This document shows positions 10,801 to 28,055 of a DNA stretch of 64,000 nucleotides, in pieces; position 1 is the stretch's first letter; every line of letters begins with the position of its first letter. This stretch comes from Tubulanus polymorphus. Taxonomy: Eukaryota > Nemertea > Palaeonemertea > Tubulaniformes > Tubulanidae. The stretch covers positions 29,406,650-29,470,649 of the forward strand of contig NC_134026.1 in NCBI RefSeq assembly GCF_964204645.1, in the 5' to 3' direction. The notes below the pieces were generated by a model. It was not told the origin of the DNA and did not search any database. It worked only from the letters and a program-made list of their open reading frames with translations. The translations under genes and the position numbers were made by a program.

Positions 10801-12181
10801 ATGGAACGTCATTCATTAATTACGGCCTTGTTGGTGGTTACATTTGCAGCAACATCTTGTACGTATCCTGTAAGATAATCAATTGTTAGATTTTAGAAAT
10901 CGAGTGATGTATGAAATCGTTTTGAATATTCTTAGTAGAGGCACGTGTGAAAAGAGGAGATTGGAGAATCATAGGCGGTAGTGTGTCGACCTTAGGTCAA
11001 CATCCATGGCAAGCAGCCATCTTATATACACCAGATTTCAGATCTGTTAAATACATCTGCGGAGGAGCTCTAATTGATGCGACTACAGTTGTGACGGCCG
11101 CTCATTGCTTTGACGAGTAAGAATTTTTTCATTTTCCTGAATGATGTGAAAAATCGTCGAGAATTCTCGTCTCATCCCCCCCCCCCCGACACATTTCATA
11201 AGACTAGCAAATGATTGCATTCTTTCTCTTTAGAAACGAAGATCCGAAACATTATCTTGTGACGACTGGAACTCTGTCTTTGAAAACTAAATTTCAGGAG
11301 AAGAGAACAACAAGAGCCATTAAACTTACTTTCCACGAAGACAGGCTGTTTGATCCTGACGGTAAGACGCCTTCATAGAGTACAAAACAAAAACTAATTC
11401 CAAATGGGGTTAAACACAATACGGTATTTATTTTTCACGTGGAATCTAATTTCAGTGATACAAGTTTCTTTCTCAAACAAAACTGTTTATTGTTATAACA
11501 AAGGACCACAACGATATCAAGTTTAAATACTTCACAGGTTATGATATTGCTATAATCAAATTAAGAAAACCTCTACTGCTGGATGAATACGCAAGCGCAT
11601 TAGCATTACCAGAATCGGTAAATGATAGAGCTAAAGTAAATGACACATGTTATGTAGCTGGCTGGGGAGCTACGACCCCAACCCAAGGTAATCAAGAAAG
11701 CTCTGAGGATGAAAAACGAAAGGTTATCATAGAACATCCAGTTAGTTATTGCAACAAATGTTCTGTTTTCACAGGAAAACAGTCCTCCACGGCTCTGTTA
11801 TATACAGATTTAAAGATACGTAATAACGCATATTGTGATCGAGTTTATCCGAGGAGTCGCGTACAAGCTGAACACGTCTGCGCTGGTGGTTATACTACTA
11901 ATAAAAACGCTTGCAAGGTAAAACATTGCCTACAGTCAAAACTTTCATATCAAAATCAAGTCCCTACAATTGATGTGAATGATTTATCTGCATAAATTAC
12001 ATCGTATGATTGTATTTGTCAGGGTGATAGCGGTTCACCACTAGTATGTATGCGTAATGGACACTGGGTTTTTGAAGGCGTTTTATCATATGGTCAGAGG
12101 ATTTGCGGAAAATATGGAATCCCAACTGTTTACACAAGTATTGCCTATTACAGAGATTGGATTGAAGAATTTAGAGTTTAA
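10801..12181 (+). CDS. Secreted trypsin-fold (S1A) serine protease with unusual S1 pocket
   Basis: Six exons (10801-10858, 10936-11116, 11234-11361, 11538-11687, 11775-11917, 12023-12181) give 272 residues in frame. A hydrophobic signal peptide ([19 protein letters not shown]) is followed by a short basic propeptide and the activation site R-IIGG. The catalytic triad is present: His in TAAHC, Asp in YDIAIIKL, Ser in GDSGSP. The usual cysteine pairs can be traced (CGGALI/AAHC, CYVAGWG, CDRVY, CAGG, NACKGDSG). Counting back from the catalytic Ser gives Asn at position 189, where trypsins have Asp and chymotrypsins Ser; PTVYT puts Thr at 226, where Gly is usual. Substrate preference therefore cannot be called tryptic. 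The first exon is fixed by phase: the donor is GTACGT at 10859 rather than the stronger-looking GTAAGA, which would break the frame. Likely a digestive or immune extracellular enzyme; active and intact. Confidence 0.9.
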
Positions 12182-17137: not shown

Positions 17138-20110
17138 ATGATGCCAGCGCCACGAATGCCAAGCCCTTTACCGAGGGATCCTGCCATGGCTATGCCGTAA
17201 GTATCATTCCAACTTTTTATTTGTACGTATGTAGTTTTGTCAGATTTGGTGTTACTTAACTTATGAATAGACACAGATGTGATTATAGTTGTGTGATGTG
17301 CAGTCATCATTTTTTGTTTAAATCGAAGTACATAATTGGAAATTTTGGTTCCGGTTAATTTTGAAGATTGTGATCGAAATTCAGTTTAACTTAACTGATT
17401 ATGCTCAAATATTTTGTATTAACCTTAGCTAACTTAAGCTTATCAACTGTTGTGTTCATCATTGTTGACTAGATATTAAATAAAATTATAACCAGGAGAA
17501 GATCCACGGTCCAATCTCGACTACCTCACCAATGAAAAAGGCACATTTGCTTGGGAACAATACCATCAACCCCCAACCCAAAATACTTTTCAGATTAAGT
17601 GTACTTGGAAATTTTGACTCGTCAAACATTTTTAAAAGTTTCAAAGTCGATTTGAATTTTTTTCTGCCTTCATGTAGAGCAATTCGGAGTGCTTCACACG
17701 AGGCATAATCCACTCCTGATGAAAGATATATCAATTCCTAGTTTACCAATTTGGAAGATTATACTAGTGTAAATTGTGTAGAATTTAAGCTGAACATTTC
17801 TACTTGCTTGTCTTCATTTGATTTAAATCTTTTCCCTCTTTTTCCTTCTCTGCGCTTTAATCTATTTTTCTCTAATCACCACCATGATGTACCTTTGTCC
17901 TCCAGATCTGACTACGACTACAATTTGAGAGTAGTTACTCTTTCTAGAGTTCCACTACTGCCAAAAATATCGAAATACTCTTGAAATCAGAATAATTTTT
18001 AGTTCATTTTCTATTAGCCTTAACTACTTTACTCAATTTTCATTTTTTTGAAACCATTCAAATGAAACCTCATTTATACAAACTCTGATAATACAGATTT
18101 ATTGCGTGAATCAAAATTGGAATTTTTTCCTAAAATAGGATGATTATTTATAATTTCATACTGAATAGAATGAACTATCGATTATAACAAAACAGATTTT
18201 CCTGTGCCCTGAAGTTCGTTGTACCGAGTTTCAACTGTAGAAACAAGAGATTTCAGGTATGGTAGTTGGGACTGCTCCTCGCCCCTCTCTCCTGTATCTG
18301 ATGCAGGCACTTGTCGTCGTTAAGTTTATTCGTAACCACTTGTAAAACTACATCAGCAATATTTACCAACTTATCACCTTTTATCGCGTTACCGCGGTTA
18401 CTATCAGACGCTATTCACGTTACTAGGCAACTAAACTTCGGATAAAGTGTCCAATGTTTGGACATAAAAGTTACATGAGCTCACAGTATTTCATATCTGT
18501 TACTGGTGGCTTTCATTCTGCTACGTCTCTGATATCATCTAACAGTTATTTGCCTACTTGGTATGTATTGTATTATAGTGTATTGCATGTATTCTGTTTT
18601 TCTTACGAATTGGATTTAAATATTTGAGTTTGTTATACTTTAATCTAAAGATATATTTGAAGTCGAGGTAATTTTCAGTAATTTTTTGTCGTCATTCCTG
18701 ACCACTTTGGGAGTAGTTTCTGCCCTTTTAAGAGCTCATCTATTCCCAAAAAATATTTGAACACTCTCGAAATCAGACTTATTTTTAGTTCATTTTCGAT
18801 TAAACAACTATTTTGATGTCAAATTATTCTAATTTGTGTTGAAACTACTACGATTAGAGATATCAGGTGATCTCATCTGTGTTGTATTAATCAAGAAAAT
18901 TTCTCTCATCAATTTATTCAAATTCGTGCAAAGTGATTTGAAGACTTTCATCAATTTTTTAAAGACAATTCATAATCAATGAAGAATTTTGTTCTGCTTT
19001 TAACATACAGCGAAGTGTACCGTCGACCGGTATATAAAGAATTTATGTATGAAAAACATTATAATTTAGTCTGAAAGCTGTGAATTATCATTCATTTGAC
19101 AGAAATATTATCTAATTATATGTAATTATCCATATACTACGTGGTGTAGGTCAACTGAGTATGGATTGATTTATTAATGTAGGTTTTTATCATGCCAGTA
19201 ATCCACAGCACTGTTGTGTCTGAGTCTTACAAAATGTTCAAATAATTTGAGGTTGTTCAAGGCCCCTACGAACTCTCCCTTAAACTCTCTTGAGCAGGTT
19301 TTTCTTTGTGGTAGATAGTGTGATAGTTTGCTGATAGATGGCACCATAGATTCAGTTCTCTCATTACAGCGAAACCGCTACTGAAATTTCATTAAATTTA
19401 CTGCTAAAAATATCGTGTTTAAGAATGTTTTCAACTATGCAGTATATATTCTATTCAATACAATAGTCAATGAAAATATGATTCACTATTTTAAGGAATT
19501 AAATTCATCTGTTTTTTTTCTGTCTCTGATAGTTTTGCAGTTATTTAATGCCCTGATAATATTTTCCTAAACAAATAATTAAATTCACTCTCATCCCTGA
19601 TTCAGGGATATGTTTTTTTGTCTGTGCAGATTAAAAAAACGATGCTTCAATTTCATAGCTGTGAGATAAGTTTTTCCATAATTTTTTGGTCGAAGCTGAA
19701 TTCATTTGTTACAATCGACAAAATGTGTTGCCGTGGCAACATTTACAATGCTTTTGTCTTAATTTACGAAACTTTTCTATAAGTTTCGTACCAGATCGAG
19801 TTTTGGGTTGATATTTTATTGTGCTTTGCTCCGATCTTCACTCTGTCGATTCTTGCCGATTTCAATGGTTACCATGGTAACATTAGCTGCCACTGTATAA
19901 AACTCGGAGCCGAGTAATGGGGATGTACCATGTGATAGGGAGATAGATCGGGTGAGTTTAAATCGGTCGGAGGGGTGGTAGCGATGTTTCACCTGTACGC
20001 AATGAAGGAATAGATATTGATTATTTTGGTCCAGTCAGCATCCCCTCATCGAGCATCATTCTCTATGACAATAAGCTAGTCCACATCCTTACAGTTAAAT
20101 ATATATATAT

Positions 20111-20143
<33 letters not shown>

Positions 20144-23100
20144 CATACTTACAGTAATATTCGTACATAAAGCTGTACGATTGGAGGCAAATTGTTTAGA
20201 TTTTATGTGCTTCATCTTTCTCTTATTCTCATTTTATTTGAATATTTCTTACTCAGAATCTCTTTATTCCCTTTATGTAATGTTTTCTTAAAGATGTTAT
20301 ACGAAATATATTCCAATACAATGTTTTGAATTATTAACGCTGAAGCTGCTGGATTTGCTAATAGTACGATATCGAACATCCATTTCAGTTAAAAGTTTAA
20401 TCGCGATTGAAAATTCTCTTAAGATTGGCGTATATTTTTGTAGGGTTATTTCTGAGTGATTATTAAGATAAAAGCCCATTTCATAATGGGAGTCAATATG
20501 ATGTATTAAACTTTGAAAGAAATATCTTAATTCGACTCTGAAAAAATGGGTTTTAACCCGTGAACCACCATCACTCGGCGCACATATCTAATACGCTTAA
20601 CCCTTATATAGCTATGCTGGGTGTACTTTTAACCCATTCATGGCCACCCGTAGATTATATTGTCACGTATTAGAAAGTGACACAGGTTGTATGTGTCGCA
20701 TGTATTGAACTGTACGCGGCTTGTATTGGCAATTCTCCAATGTATTCGCATTGATCTTAGAACAGAGCATATTGAGGTTTTCCCTACCCAATGACTCGAT
20801 TTTTATGCAAATGGCAGCGCGTGGAGCAGGTTCCATACTGCATGTATAATAGTTAACTGAAGCCAATCGGATTGTCAGAGATGCAGTGAGCGCGATGTAT
20901 ATATTATACACTGCTGGGAAATACGTATATCTGCTGTTTACACCGGTTTTATGATGGAATAAAATTTCTCGTCAAACTTTATCCGTATCGTAGAGGAGTG
21001 TTTAATCTAGTCAAATGATGATGAACATGTTAGACGGTGGTCAGATGCCCATGGGGCCTGGCCCGGGCCCTAAAGGACCCATGAATCCGGGAATGACACC
21101 GGATCCTTACTATAGTCCTCAATTTGCTCCTGCTCCTTGTTACAGGCGACATACTCCTTATATGGGGCAACCGGATTACAGGATTTATGAACTTAATAAA
21201 CGTTTACAGCAAAGAACCGAGGTAAGTTCTACTGCTTACTATTTCACGTCACTAATCGTCACATAAACTTCACATTTTATAAATTATGGAAAAACTGTGT
21301 TGACTACTGAAACTATATGCATTAATACAAATCAGACGAGTTGATTGTCTGATTATATTCAATGTGTAACATTAGATTGATATATAGTTGGGTACAGTTT
21401 GCATTTAGCGTTGTTGATGCATGTATTACACGCCGAGTCTATTGTATTGATAATGTATACAGACAGCAGTAGTACTACATTTTAATTCACGTATCTGAAA
21501 CCTGAAAAGTGCTGTATTTTCAATATGAAATCCTACAATATTGTGTCGTATATTTGCAGGAAAGTGACAATCTGTGGTGGGATGCATTCTGTACAGAATT
21601 TTTTGAAGATGATGCGACGCTTACGTTGTCATTTTGTTTAGAAGATGGACCAAAGAGATATAGTACGTGTTGATGGTTCGATTAGTCTTTGTTCAAAAAC
21701 TCACACCGAAGTCATCACTAGAAATGGTTTCCTGATATAACCCGAGCTAATTTGAGACTCAATATTAAACCATAGCCATATAACATTAGGTAGACATACT
21801 GAGCCTGGGGGTAAGATCTGAGGGTCTTACCAAATCTATTGGGCAAAATTATCAGAAAAGAATATTCTGGCAGTGATGCATCGTTTTGACAGGCAATATA
21901 CCTTTTTTGGACAAAATTGTGCCTTTGTTTCACAGAAAGTGCCCTTTAAAGAAACATAGTGCCCAAAGGCCGTTCTGTGATTTTCTGAAGGGGTTGGACC
22001 AGAATTTCTGGTCCAAAATAATTCTGTAATATTTTGAATGGGTGCTTTATTTCAAAAGGGTGGATTTGGCCACATGAGCACATGCAGGCTTGATGCATTG
22101 GAGGAGAAATTTATGAAAATTTGGGGCAAAAGAAGGCTTTTCTGGTTTTATTCCTCAAATTACTGAACTTTGGAGCATATTTGAATATATTCTTATTTTT
22201 CATTGCCAAAGAAAATGTTCCTAACTTTTTGGAGGGCACATTTGAACATACTTTGAAATGGGTGTTAATCCGCACTTGGTGCCAATTTTTACGTTACGTG
22301 CCTTAGAATGAATAGGGCTCTCGAGGTTTTGAGGGTCTTACAGAAATTCCGCGCCTGGATCCATCCACCTATGAAGTCTCCGATCTGAAACTTTATATTT
22401 ATGTTTGTTTTGTAGCTATAGGAAGAACTTTGATACCGAGATATTTCCGCAGTATTTTTGAAGGTGGCGTAACAGATTTATATTATATATTAAAACATCC
22501 CAAAGAATCATTCCATAATACGACATTAACGTTAGACTGCGATCAGGCTATGATGGTTACCCACCACGGTAAACCTATGTTTACCAAGGTTTGTATACCG
22601 GTACATTAAAATTTCTTAAAATCAAATTCGAAATTCTATTCGAGTCACTCGCGTTTCCCTCGAGACTGCATCGAAAACAAGTTATGATTTTGTCGTATAT
22701 AGGTAATAACGGAAGGCCGATTGATATTAGAATTTACATTTGATGATCTTATGAGAATTCGTTCTTGGCATTTTGCAACAAGGCAGCATCGTGAATTAAT
22801 ACCACGTAGTGTGATAGCCATGCAGGTACATGTACGTTGTTTTTCTTATATTTCCCTCATCATTTCCTATACGAATTGTTTTATAGATAAAACAAATAAT
22901 GCTCGTTGAATCCATACTCAGGGGTCAGATTGATGTGAATAATTGATGTCTGTTTCAAGAAATTGTGAAAAAATAAAATCATGAAAATGGTGAAAAATCT
23001 AAGAAAAGTGTATAGCAAAATGTTTTTATCTCCTTTCTTTGTCATTTTCTGAGGAGGTGAGAATTTATGCATAAGTTGGGTTAAGTTTTAAGAATTTTAT

Positions 23101-25095
23101 TTCAATCTGTCCCGATATTGTTCAGTAACTGCTTATGTCATTGTACCTTGACATAGAAAAATGTGCAAAAATCATGAAATATTATGTGAAAAATCCTGGT
23201 GTTGTGAAAAAACCAATAGTTAAGATATGAAAAATCTGAAAATTCACTGAGTTGATCAATCTGAGCCCTGATACTGTATAACTGGCTAAACTTATACTTA
23301 ATTGTTTTTTGTTTTGATGTTTACAGCAGGATCCAGCGATGGTTGAACAGCTCTCAAAAAACATCACGCGACAAGGATTAACAAATTATACTTTAAATTT
23401 TCTAAGAGTGAGTACAGATTTTCGATTGCTTTTCAGATGAGCTGAATAAAGAGCCATGGAAATTTCCGATTGTAGACGATAAGTTGAATTTTAAGTAGAA
23501 ACTTCTTAATTGTATTATTTTCTCTGTTCGATAGTTATGTGTTATATTAGAACCAATGCAAGAACTGATGTCAAGGCACAAGGCGTACGGTTTAAATCCT
23601 CGAGACTGTCTCAAAACGACGTTATTTCAAAAATGGCAGAGAATGGTAGCTCCGCCAGGTAAAGGTGTGCTATCTATCATCAACATTTTTATTATTTTTA
23701 CATTTTTTGACTTATGAAATATCGATTACTGTAATATGGATCGATTGAAAATAATTCACAAGATACAACATTTTGGTTAATATTCTTTCCAAAGTTTTCA
23801 ATTTTCCCTTTTAAACACATTAAGATAATTTCCCAACAAAATTATGTCTTGACAATTTTTATTTGCAAGTGTTTATCTTATGGAGTTTAAACACTAAAAC
23901 CATTTAGTTTGGTCAGAACTCGGTTTCCTGTTCAATTTGATACGAAATTCAATGCAAATTTTGATATCATTTGATTACAGAAAGTCAACGTCAACCGAAT
24001 AAACGTAGAAAACGTAAATCATCAGCGAGCACGAACGCATCAGTGAATAGTGTTGGTAATAGTGGCGGTAAACAAAAGCGATCTCCAGGACCACAATCGG
24101 CTTCATTTAATATCTCATCATCAGTACCTGGTGTAAGTATCAACCCAAACATGTACCAGCCTTTCCCCACCCCTTTGTATCATCTGTGGGTCAAAAATAT
24201 CTCTTAATGGGATGAATGGGTAGGTATCCCCTTCATCCTCCTGGGGCCAGTTTTATAGATTACCTGTAATTTTCCTATCTAGAATTAATTCAATTGACAA
24301 ATCATTTGGTGAAAAACCCTTGGGTTAAAGTTAAGAATAGATCTAATCTATAGAACTGGTTCGTTTTGTTAGTGTATCACGTTAACACACGACCTGTCTG
24401 TGTAAACTGGTGATGTATTTTCATCTAAAGCTATTATCTAAAAGATTATATAACTGTGTACGTTGATGGTGTTAGTTTGTCATCAGCTTCTTAATGAAAT
24501 CAGTAGAAGAAACTTAAGCATTTTAATCATTTCAAATGTCAACTGTTTGTCTGAACATTTGACACTTTGGTAGATTACTTAGTGTATATGGTGTTTAGAT
24601 TGTATAGAATGGCTGATGGCTGGCTTTCATGGGTTGCTGAATCCATACTTGTAAATATCCCAAAATAGTAGTACAGTATATTTATTTTTTCAGGATGTTA
24701 TGGTAGTTGGGGAACCAACACTTATGGGTGGGGACAGTACTGATGAGGATATACGCCTAATAACACGATTAGAAAATGATAATAACAAAGAGAACACCTA
24801 GTTTGCCATCTAGTGGTCATGTTGTGAACTAATATGTACATGTTGTACATGTTTTCAGGATGTAATGGTGGTTGGGGAACCGACGTTGATGGGAGGGGAG
24901 TTCGGCGATGAGGACGAACGATTAATAACACGTCTCGAGAATACGCAGTACGAACCGAACAATGGAGATGACGATCCTAATAATTACCACAGTTCAGCGG
25001 CGTTGAAGTCCGGACCGTGGGGACAACCGCCTCCAGATAGTAAAACTCCCCAACCTCCTAATCCTCCGAACTCTACCGAAGATAAGAAAGACTGA
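17138..25095 (+). CDS. LDB: LIM-domain-binding protein (LDB1/LDB2/Chip), canonical isoform
   Basis: Nine exons give 420 residues in frame: 17138-17196, 21011-21221, 21560-21662, 22416-22588, 22703-22825, 23327-23407, 23535-23658, 23981-24132, 24859-25095. LDB dimerises and bridges LIM-homeodomain and LMO proteins at enhancers. Landmarks: RHTPYMGQPDYRIYELNKRL, DNLWWDAFCTEFFEDDATL and LEDGPKRY of the dimerisation domain; RQHRELIPRS; LEPMQELMSRHKAY; a nuclear localisation signal NKRRKRKS; then the LIM-interaction domain DVMVVGEPTLMGGEFGDEDE and RLITRLENTQ. The first coding exon adds a Pro/Met-rich N-terminus (about 90 residues precede RHTPY). If that exon starts at the acceptor at 17060, an in-frame TAA at 17063 makes ATG 17138 the start; if it starts at 17074, coding could extend upstream. 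A second copy of the LIM-interaction exon lies just upstream (24694-24801). Exon 6 starts at a CAGCAG tandem acceptor. Confidence 0.95.
17197..21010 (+). other. LDB intron 1 (3.8 kb)
   Basis: Large intron without a recognisable exon. It holds a pair of diverged direct repeats (about 17925-18035 and 18707-18815) and a TA-rich microsatellite at 20098-20142. Enhancers may be present but cannot be identified by eye. Confidence 0.6.
20098..20142. repeat. TA microsatellite
   Basis: About 22 TA units interrupted by one AAA, inside LDB intron 1. Confidence 0.9.
21800..22365. repeat. Candidate dispersed repeat in LDB intron 3
   Basis: The segment begins near 'ctgggggtaagatctgaggg' and ends with 'gagggtcttacagaaattcc', so 'gagggtcttac' occurs at both ends in the same direction. 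The interior contains the palindrome ggaccagaatttctggtcc and no exon. Its texture is that of a degraded transposable element, but the identity is unknown. Confidence 0.35.
24247..24360. repeat. Foldback repeat in LDB intron 8
   Basis: Arms 'ccagttttatagatta' and 'taatctatagaactgg' face each other about 110 bp apart. The 'ccagtt...aactgg' ends recall the repeats at 54421 and 56668, so this may be a diverged relative. Confidence 0.55.
24694..24801 (+). CDS. LDB: Duplicated alternative LIM-interaction exon of LDB with early stop
   Basis: Directly after a good 3' splice site (tttttttcag) a 36-codon frame reads DVMVVGEPTLMGG, then DSTDEDIRLITRLEN, a short polar tail (DNNKENT) and TAG. It is phase-compatible with exon 8 (ends 24132). 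It parallels the first 28 codons of the canonical exon at 24859: the core DVMVVGEPTLMGG and RLITRLEN are identical, while only EFG/DST and E/I differ within them. By hand count about 12 codons differ synonymously and 4 non-synonymously, so both copies appear selected as protein. Using acceptor 24693 would give a protein with a variant LIM-interaction core lacking the canonical C-terminal tail; using 24858 skips this copy. The 57 bp between the copies end in the second acceptor. I see no donor that would join copy 1 to copy 2 without a premature stop. Confidence 0.8.
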   Translation, partial: DVMVVGEPTLMGGDSTDEDIRLITRLENDNNKENT

Positions 25096-26290
25096 GAAAT
25101 CAAAAATGGATAACATATTTTACCTTGCCAGTATACGATACAACGGATGGATTATCGCGCAGTGTCCATAGCAACACGCCCGCGGTGCACGTCGATGCAT
25201 TGTTGGCGTGCGATAACGTCAAGAACGCACATACTCTCGGAGAGGGAGACTAGTAGAGACACCTGGTGGATTACTACAACAGCCTGGTCGATATAGACGT
25301 GGTCGGTTTCCCATGTGCAATAGTGAAGTGCGAGTCAGAGAGAATTTGACAGCTGTTAGAATTAACTGTATAATAATATAGGTCAGTCGTTTGACCTACG
25401 TGAACTTTTATAAAAAATGTAAAATAAGTAAACTTAAGATCTGAGTTATTTCATGAGTAAATAATTAATTTGTTGTATGTACAGTTAGTTAGTTGATCCT
25501 GGTCCTATTTATATAAACAGAAAACTGACAGGTTCTATATATACAGTGGTGGATTAACTAAACCCACACTTTCTCTTCTTGAGTTGAAATTATGACGAAG
25601 GAAAAATAGAATCCTTACAGTAAATTAATGGGTAATCGTTTATATTCAGTGAAATTAATGTTTGTTGTGTTGAGTGAATTGACCACTGTGTAAGAGGCTT
25701 GAATTTCTAGAGAACATGTATGTAGTCGATTTAGTATTTATTGTTGAATATTTAACTGTTATACAGAGATTGTATACAGTAATACATGCTATATTAGTTT
25801 CTCAAACTCGGGGGCCCTTTCTGTAACAGTGATTACAACTGTGAATCTCTCTCTTTCTCTTTGTCTATTCCGAGTTCATGGGTTCGATTTTGATTTTTAT
25901 TAGTATCAAAATTGTATGAATTGTTCTTGGAAGTAGACAAAATGATCTGTTTCTGACATTATATCACCCCTGTAACTTGGGCTAGATAGTTATAGATTTC
26001 AACACAAGATGGCAGCATCTACCTACATGTGAGATGAAGCTAGATCGAATCTACTCAGAACCCATGAATTCTGAATATTTTGTATTTATTCCGTAATCAA
26101 ACTTCTGGAATGATTTTAGTTTGTAATCTCCTGTTTTCGAGCTATTTGGTATTGTTAGAATATATTTGAATCACTGCCTTTTTTAAAGGGGAGAATACAT
26201 TTTCTTATTCCAGACATTAAAACTTTATTTTGTAATGTGTCTGAACGTAATGTATGTCGCACGTTTCTGTGGCCAGAATTTCTACAGACT

Positions 26291-26296
26291 AATAAA
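26291..26296 (+). terminator. Poly(A) signal of LDB
   Basis: AATAAA about 1.2 kb downstream of the canonical stop. The intervening 25096-26290 carries no exon and is read as 3' UTR; an earlier cleavage site cannot be excluded. Confidence 0.45.
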
Positions 26297-26309
26297 AACT
26301 CCTTTCATT

Positions 26310-27211
26310 TGAAAGTTATAATTAAGATACATTTATCAGGTGTTTTGCTTTTATTTCTGATTAGGGATCGTTTGAGTTGAGCGGATCGGTGAAGTGATCA
26401 ACAATCTCTATCTGCAATTATTGAAAGTGACTCAAAGCCCTTTTGAAAAGCAGATTCTTCTTTTGATAAAGCTTCAGCGTTGATAGAATTATACGTTTCA
26501 AACAAAATAGTACCAGCAAAAATTCATGAAGACTAAAGTCTATGAATTTTTCATCGGACGCAGCCCACTGAACATTTATTACTCGCACATTTATTACTGC
26601 CACAGTAGCATAATCGGTCTTGAACTTGAACTTATTTTACAACTCAAACCACATTACAGTGATACATTGAGGATACAGGAATTATCATGTAAAAACAGTT
26701 ACAAAGAAATGTCGAAAAAGAACAAATTTAGCAATATTCTAACCGTCACGTGCTGCCCCTAGATATAACGTTTGCGGCGAATATGTGAACTAATTTAATC
26801 CCCGCATGCCACAGTTGGAATAATGGGCTATCGGGTTAGTTCATATATTTACCGTCAATGATATACATAGCGGCAGCACTTAACGGTCAAGTTCTGACAA
26901 CCCACTGGCGCGGAACATGACCGGCCGGACAATTTTGTGAAACGTTTTGTCAAGAAATTGTCCTACAAGAGAGCTTAGCAAGTTGATCCAATTCTGATCA
27001 ATATGTGGCACAAAGTTTAGTTGCATGCCTACCTAAGGCGATTAGATCAAATGAACAAAAGAAAACGGCGGTGATAAAAACATTTAGCCGACTGGTGCTG
27101 CCGTCAGGGACAAATTTATACCACAAGGGGGTGCACCGGTAGATTATCAGAAACTCACTGATTTTAATTTTTTAAATTAGGTACTCGTGTTGATTCACAT
27201 TTGGCTTCATA
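26310..27211. other. Spacer between LDB and the UPF0390 gene
   Basis: About 0.9 kb without a supported exon. The promoter of the UPF0390 gene is expected in its right half. Confidence 0.5.
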
Positions 27212-28055
27212 ATGCCTCAAGGAAAGATCAAAGTTAAAGCCCAACTACCAAGTGGTACGAAGCAAAAATCAGGGCCGCGCAAAATACCAAAATTAAAGAA
27301 AGGACGTAAGTGTTTTTGTCACTTTTGTTAATTTTTACTTCCTTTTTTTACTTCCTTATCCTATTTTAAGATAAACCAATAAAAATTAACAATAGGAGCC
27401 ATTGCAGTTTATCAATCAGGTGTTCTTAGTGGTTTTGTACCTAATCTAACCATACAATAAGACTATTCTTTATTAACGCTAACCCCACACACCACAGCAC
27501 TAGAGGGTCTAATATTAGGTAGTTAGTTATCTACTCGTTGGTGGTCAACTTTTATAATCGCACGAGCTTATACCTGTGGTATGTCCTATCGTGAGACCAC
27601 ATACAGGTTATTGATTAATGTTGTTAAAGTTCGTAAGAATTCTACGAAAGATATTGGAAAATGGATGGCATCAAGATATTATGTTGACCAGCTAAAACGA
27701 TTTATGAGTCGATGTATAAATCAAGAAAGTATCTCAAATCCATTCTTACAATTCTCATTTCATTTTTACAGCTCATATTCTGAAGCCGAAGAAACCAAGA
27801 CACATCGATGGTGCTAAGTTAAAAGAGGTTAGTACTATCAAATAGTGTCAAATGATATTACAAATCTGTGTAAGATATACGACTATTCCTTTAGTGAAAT
27901 CTGTATATAATTACTGTTTCTATTTTCAGGCAATTTCCAAAACGATTAGTCAAAATGTCGAATCGCAAGTGATTTCAAGAGCGGCCACAATTGAAAATAA
28001 GTCTCTGAACGTATTAAAAACAAACTCAACAACAAAGAAAAAGAAGAAATCCTAA
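27212..28055 (+). CDS. UPF0390 family small basic protein (C19orf53-like)
   Basis: Three exons (27212-27305, 27772-27827, 27930-28055) encode 91 residues in frame. The protein starts MPQGKIKVKAQLPSG, has the family block ILKPKKPRHIDGAKLKE, and ends in a Lys-rich run KKKKKS. It matches the vertebrate Leydig cell tumour 10 kDa protein homologue (C19orf53), a small, highly basic nuclear/nucleolar-type protein of poorly defined function. The length is close to that of the family (about 100). The ATG is the first one after an in-frame-stop-rich leader. The gene converges on the DUF3105 gene to its right. Confidence 0.85.

Follow-up and report, generated by a model that had tools for sequence, protein, structure and literature searches.

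A tandem copy of the LIM-interaction exon segment in the LDB gene of Tubulanus polymorphus, probably retained as an alternative C-terminus

The stretch of Tubulanus polymorphus DNA analysed here (64,000 nucleotides, hereafter "the window") carries on its + strand a gene encoding an LDB (LIM domain-binding) protein, a cofactor common to LIM-homeodomain and LMO proteins, by way of which they act, and customarily regarded as an invariant component of the "LIM code". The gene is identified as LDB by the match between positions 22418–22588 and the Pfam LIM_bind family (PF01803), whose score of 29.9 bits passes the cut-off of 24.2 bits; the segment 22703–22819 reaches 20.3 bits with the same family, a value below this cut-off, and no family was assigned by the Pfam scan to either 23535–23660 or 21015–21197. 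A PF01803 search of the 268-Mb genome found one place (44.4 bits), so that the locus in the window is probably the only LDB gene of this animal. The search for LDB in viral contigs yielded six pattern matches, none of them confirmed, and no match to the DNA pattern; that in prokaryote contigs yielded no LDB, the two mycobacterial pattern matches being presumably due to chance. A search for COX1, intended to place the animal through its mitochondrial genome, gave no match. The features on which the following analysis relies are collected in Table 1.

Table 1. Features of the LDB gene and of its duplicated last-exon segment (positions are those of the window)
Feature	Position	Strand	Basis and remarks
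Upstream LDB exon, coding for a portion of LIM_bind	22416..22588	+	PF01803 match; exon end approximate
Penultimate LDB coding exon (…RRKRKSS…SSVPG, basic run)	23981..24132	+	Sequence, frame, GGT/GTAAGT donor
Intron end and acceptor 1 (TTTTTTCAG), probably co-duplicated	24663..24693	+	Alignment; intron part not significant alone
Copy 1, alternative LID exon segment	24694..24801	+	Translation; 35 codons and TAG; DVMVVGEPTLMGGDSTDEDIRLITRLEN-DNNKENT
19-mer CCACTAGATGGCAAACTAG with CTCF-like core	24798..24816 (core 24805-24816)	-	Lead only
Acceptor 2 region: branch motif, hairpin, then TGTTTTCAG	24827..24858	+	Sequence and predicted fold
Copy 2, canonical LID exon	24859..25095	+	78 codons and TGA; DVMVVGEPTLMGGEFGDEDERLITRLEN-TQYEPNN…
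Putative polyadenylation hexamers, ATTAAA (26216) and AATAAA (26291)	26216..26296	+	Hexamer scan; first after 24694

The segment of the last LDB exon that encodes the LIM-interaction domain (LID) is present twice, the starts of the two copies being 165 bp apart and the stop codon of copy 1 being separated from copy 2 by a gap of 57 bp (24802 to 24858). Both copies begin in phase 0, with no split codon, after the penultimate-exon donor, whose GT (24133–24134) is common to the two acceptors, and each is preceded by a TTTTCAG acceptor. In these respects the preliminary description of the locus, namely two LID exon copies 57 bp apart, each behind a 3′ splice site and in the same phase, was accurate, as was its reading of copy 1 as the LID core followed by RLITRLEN and by a stop after seven further residues, the translation being DVMVVGEPTLMGGDSTDEDIRLITRLEN-DNNKENT-TAG. 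Beyond DVMVVGEPTLMGGEFGDEDERLITRLEN copy 2 continues for 50 residues, whereas copy 1 has only the seven-residue tail beyond DVMVVGEPTLMGGDSTDEDIRLITRLEN.

Both copies pass the 25-bit cut-off of the Pfam LID family (PF17916), copy 1 with 36.7 bits (E 3.8e-9) and copy 2 with 47.9 bits, the lower score of the former being counted against its retention as a working C-terminus. A whole-genome LID search at E <= 1 returned just these two matches and no third, three candidates having been scored. Compared with PDB sequences, copy 1 matches the LID of LDB1 (best E 2.2e-10), and copy 2 is identical from D300 to Q329 to the LDB1 LID solved in complex with LMO2, LMO4, LHX3 and ISL1 (PDB 2XJY, 1RUT, 2JTN and 4JCJ).

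The alignment of the two copies starts approximately 23–30 bp upstream of each acceptor and is clear through RLEN. The exon similarity is far above chance; on the other hand, that of the intron ends, taken by itself, is not (182 of 500 shuffles were equal or better), a result likewise weighing against the proposed retention, so that co-duplication of the acceptor is likely rather than proven and the duplicated unit likely brought its own 3′ splice site along. The tail of copy 1 after RLEN has no homology with the rest of the copy 2 exon (232 of 500 shuffles were as good), and its comparison with the upstream intron aligned only the acceptor end, again at chance level (182 of 500 shuffles). Since DNNKENT lacks detectable homology, the tail may be unselected, and this too was counted against the preferred reading.

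Over the 84 nucleotides (28 codons) that can be compared the copies share 61, with 6, 3 and 14 mismatches at the first, second and third codon positions, respectively. An assembly artefact (a haplotype or joining error) or gene conversion is hardly credible as the origin of the second copy, for even if tandem repeats commonly attract errors of this kind, an artefact would leave near-identical copies and not copies diverged to this extent with a codon-position bias; furthermore, a 402-bp query covering both copies is found at a single place in the genome. Twelve codons are identical, 12 differ synonymously and four change the residue, exactly as in the hand count of about 12 and about 4 given earlier. 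By the NG86 method there are 14 synonymous differences over 19.2 sites and nine replacement differences over 64.8 sites (pS 0.73, pN 0.139), corresponding to a dN of 0.154, to a dS of ~2.7 that is so near saturation as to be unreliable as a figure, and to a dN/dS of 0.056 for copy 1 versus copy 2.

A ratio calculated between two copies blends the histories of both; if copy 1 had been dead while copy 2 stayed under constraint, the null value would by our reasoning be ~0.5. Decay was simulated starting from the sequence of copy 2, with copy 1 changing neutrally and copy 2 accepting only synonymous changes, at eight divergences with 4,000 runs each; none of the 32,000 runs kept the replacements to four or fewer while reaching 12 or more synonymous codons without a stop, and this scenario is accordingly rejected. 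The claim that copy 1 is maintained as protein is thus borne out by both the ratio and the simulation, and the check proposed along with it, i.e., a dN/dS near 1, gave instead the above value of 0.056, the proper simulated null of ~0.5 being rejected as well. Late loss of constraint on copy 1 is less easily excluded than early loss: the probability that no more than four residues would have changed, without a stop, is 0.20 after ~8 free substitutions in the 84 bp and 0.06 after 10 (~0.12 per site). Because the late decay that can be tolerated is small compared with the saturated synonymous divergence, copy 1 must have served as coding sequence for the greater part of its existence. Protein-level selection on the two copies is accordingly supported within the scope of these statistics, namely one genome and one pair of 84-bp sequences.

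The LID is a segment that is disordered without its partner. In LDB1 it comprises residues 300–330, of which, according to passages in PMC3405102 and PMC4195752, 302–309 bind on the LIM2 side, whereas R320, the buried I322 and T323 are located on the LIM1 side; M310–D318, with G312–G315 disordered, is defined as the spacer in a passage of PMC3405102. In LDB1 numbering the four replacements of copy 1, the only differences up to N327 from the LID of the aforementioned complexes, are E313D, F314S, G315T and E319I, and the sole further changes within the 31-residue LID are those of T328-Q329-F330 to D-N-N. Residues 300–312 and 320–327 are identical in the two copies, so that both LIM-binding motifs, as delimited in those passages, are kept, and the spacer with its adjoining residue 319 reads DST-DED-I in copy 1 versus EFG-DED-E in copy 2. 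All four replacements fall within codons 11–20 (residues 310–319), for which random placement gives P 0.010, and three of them lie together at codons 14–16 (313–315; P 0.0012); when only positions strictly inside M310–D318 are considered, the probability of finding at least three of the four is 0.084, all three values being post hoc.

In copy 1 the contact motifs have stayed fixed while the linker has been recoded. With the changes in or next to the spacer and the contact motifs the same, an "altered LIM-binding surface", proposed in the preliminary description as the outcome of acceptor choice between a full and an altered LDB, is not what the comparison reveals; what stands of that proposal is a segment that would be usable by acceptor choice and would give a short C-terminus. 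A retuning of the choice of LIM partners by copy 1 is possible, although it is not the simplest reading, and passages in PMC5496915 describe spacers as contributing minimally to the binding of the LIM/LID pairs characterised elsewhere, with that of nematode LIM-7 as an exception.

The EFG → DST difference (24733–24741 versus 24898–24906) could have arisen through two compensating 2-base indels with the frame regained within three codons or, alternatively, through seven substitutions, the alignment allowing either reading. The DSTDED sequence conforms to the acidic S/T-x-x-D/E consensus for casein kinase 2 sites, and the NKEN of the copy 1 tail includes a KEN triplet, both motifs being short enough to occur by chance.

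The two acceptors differ in their surroundings. Acceptor 1 has extra AGs at −27, −24 and −19 and is devoid of a yUnAy branch motif upstream of −10, whereas acceptor 2 is served by the branch motif CTAAT, whose A occupies −27 (24832), and is AG-free from −47 to the acceptor AG. Inspection of five other LDB acceptors indicated that one of them (22703, in the LIM_bind domain) carries an AG at −23 and likewise lacks a yUnAy motif; since this acceptor shares the weak features, the weakness of acceptor 1 is not decisive against its use. Judged by its sequence, acceptor 1 looks weak yet usable, a condition fitting a regulated or minor form, or one falling out of use.

This last prospect, according to which copy 1 would be a young relic, i.e., an alternative exon that worked for long and was lately disused, its acceptor being now too weak, is in our opinion distinctly unlikely. 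The competing AGs and the want of an evident branch motif would agree with it, as would the calculation that up to ~8 unconstrained substitutions would fairly often leave no more than four residues changed and introduce no stop, but the frame, the acceptor, the published LIM-contact residues and the in-frame stop are all intact, and the replacements are confined in a non-random manner to the spacer and its border.

Just 5′ of acceptor 2 lies the inverted repeat ATGTACA-TGT-TGTACAT (24831–24853), and the hairpin predicted for it would span the region from the branch motif to the acceptor. The 72 nucleotides around acceptor 2 have a fold z of −1.82, with seven of 200 shuffles as stable, which is a weak signal, and the fold of the 401 nucleotides across both copies is unremarkable (z −0.21; 38 of 100 shuffles as stable).

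A scan of 24694–26500 for AATAAA and ATTAAA found neither hexamer between the copies, so that the terminal exon and the 3′ end would be common to the two forms. A stop codon located in the last exon, with no junction downstream of it, is not marked by exon-junction-dependent decay. Given the position of the copy 1 stop in the last exon and the lack of an intervening poly(A) signal, the short form should escape this decay and end at the same 3′ end as the long one.

The explanation that we consider likely is that the LID-coding beginning of the last exon, and probably its 3′ splice site with it, was duplicated in tandem long ago and that the extra copy has been kept as an alternative C-terminus. 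A single terminal exon would offer two 3′ splice sites to choose from: a transcript joined from the donor after 24132 to 24859 (acceptor 2) would encode the full LDB, whereas one joined to 24694 (acceptor 1) would encode an LDB with intact LIM-contact motifs, a recoded spacer and DNNKENT in place of the 50-residue tail, the remainder of the exon, including copy 2, becoming 3′ UTR. We infer that both acceptors would be used and that the short form would still bind LIM domains, the isoforms presumably differing in hinge geometry or in regulation (with DSTDED as a putative casein kinase 2 site) as well as in the loss of the tail. LDB would itself become a spliced variable were both forms produced, and a gene with two LIDs differing just in spacer and tail would constitute a natural experiment on the role of the flexible spacer. 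In a broader and more doubtful version the locus would be an ancient spliced LDB switch in which the contacts were frozen and the hinge spacer and tail swapped, altering geometry or phosphorylation control and not affinity, and in which a CTCF-like site in the gap, described below, might slow the polymerase after copy 1 and thereby help to set the choice; this version we regard as rather unlikely.

Splicing of an LDB gene that alters the C-terminus has a precedent in the vertebrate LDB/CLIM forms (Tran et al. 2006, J Biochem 140:105), as reported in a passage of PMC8033514; according to that passage, however, those forms are without the LID, which the copy 1 form would retain. These forms, and in particular the LDB2 splice variant without LID, could be cited for the notion that the splicing of copy 1 is regulatory, truncating LDB for dose tuning or to give a dominant-negative form, with LIM binding incidental, and it is true that the short form would be without the 50-residue tail and would have three residues changed at the LID edge. 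Nevertheless, plain truncation requires no conserved 28-residue LID with the same contact motifs, and one would expect a dominant-negative LDB to lack the LID that is here retained; this alternative was judged quite improbable.

The arrangement resembles the C-terminal type of tandem duplicated exon substitution as characterised in the relevant passages of PMC9741552, where 77 of 236 human events are C-terminal, in that adjacent homologous exons, old and conserved as protein, are either of them able to end the protein; in fly, according to a passage of PMC9013439, mutually exclusive tandem terminal exons are known. Also common to this class are the same phase and the own acceptors of the copies (a terminal exon requires an acceptor only), features known here from the DNA. 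Unlike the members of this class, the LDB copies lie in one terminal exon and would differ by acceptor choice, no separate poly(A) site for copy 1 precedes copy 2, and the copy 1 tail is not homologous to that of copy 2. Homologous alternative C-termini generated by tandem exon duplication are a known class. The term "LDB" has no occurrence in the main text of PMC9741552 and PMC9013439, and a limited search of open-licence full texts on the LDB LID with splicing or exon duplication found no duplicated LID exon.

The gap between the copies contains a CTCF-like core, and the end of the 19-mer of which it is part overlaps the copy 1 stop codon. The pattern CCASYAGRKGGC, the CTCF core consensus, has 4246 matches genome-wide compared with 89 for reversed-pattern controls (~48-fold), an excess that is due in part to dispersed repeats and that suggests that the animal uses CTCF; taken with the LDB sequence, the motif hints at a bilaterian. 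The match at 24805–24816 is the sole one in the 64-kb window, and two of 100 shuffles of the window have one (mean 0.02), although the genome density predicts 1.01 matches per 64 kb, so that one per window is to be expected; only the location is striking, 0.0009 matches being expected, post hoc, inside the 57-bp gap.

The sequence CCACTAGATGGC alone has 280 genome matches versus 14 for controls; among 30 of these sites whose flanks were viewed, that of the window included, about nine of the 29 others could be grouped by eye through common flanks. At one mismatch or fewer, CCACTAGATGGCAAACTAG has 37 genome matches including that in the window, and 0 in the control. Thirty of the 37 were examined, again with the window site, and for 15 of the other 29 a flank plainly resembles that of another site (score >=60), whereas the flanks of the window site score 12–22 against the 29 others, mostly at shuffle level. 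Four of the 29 left flanks (L055, L056, L057 and L070, i.e., two related pairs) exceed the best of 30 shuffles by 1–5 points, the shuffle control covering left flanks only. Among the sites L043–L072 the 19-mer lies in dispersed repeats, with several groups of near-alike copies (such as L057, L059, L060 and L070–L072) that bear the CTCF-like motif. A remote repeat origin of the gap site is possible, and CCACTAGATGGCAAACTAG may be what is left of a repeat from which copy 1 gained its stop codon. Binding of CTCF downstream of an exon is linked to exon inclusion via polymerase stalling in passages of PMC8373115, in which exceptions and upstream binding are also described. With the match count as expected from density and the 19-mer borne by repeats, CTCF as a splice switch was set aside as a lead only and given no weight in the verdict.

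Other features of the window were noticed as well. Exons of a trypsin-like serine protease, recognised by eye from IIGG, TAAHC and GDSGSP motifs, occupy 10926–12178, and downstream of LDB on the same strand (27212–27970) is the start of a small gene, MPQGKIKVKAQLPSGTKQKSGPRK…, which on inspection by eye resembles C19orf53/UPF0390. Upstream of the identified LDB exons there is a 54-nt direct repeat (17963–18016 and 18749–18802), whose units are 85% identical and 786 bp apart.
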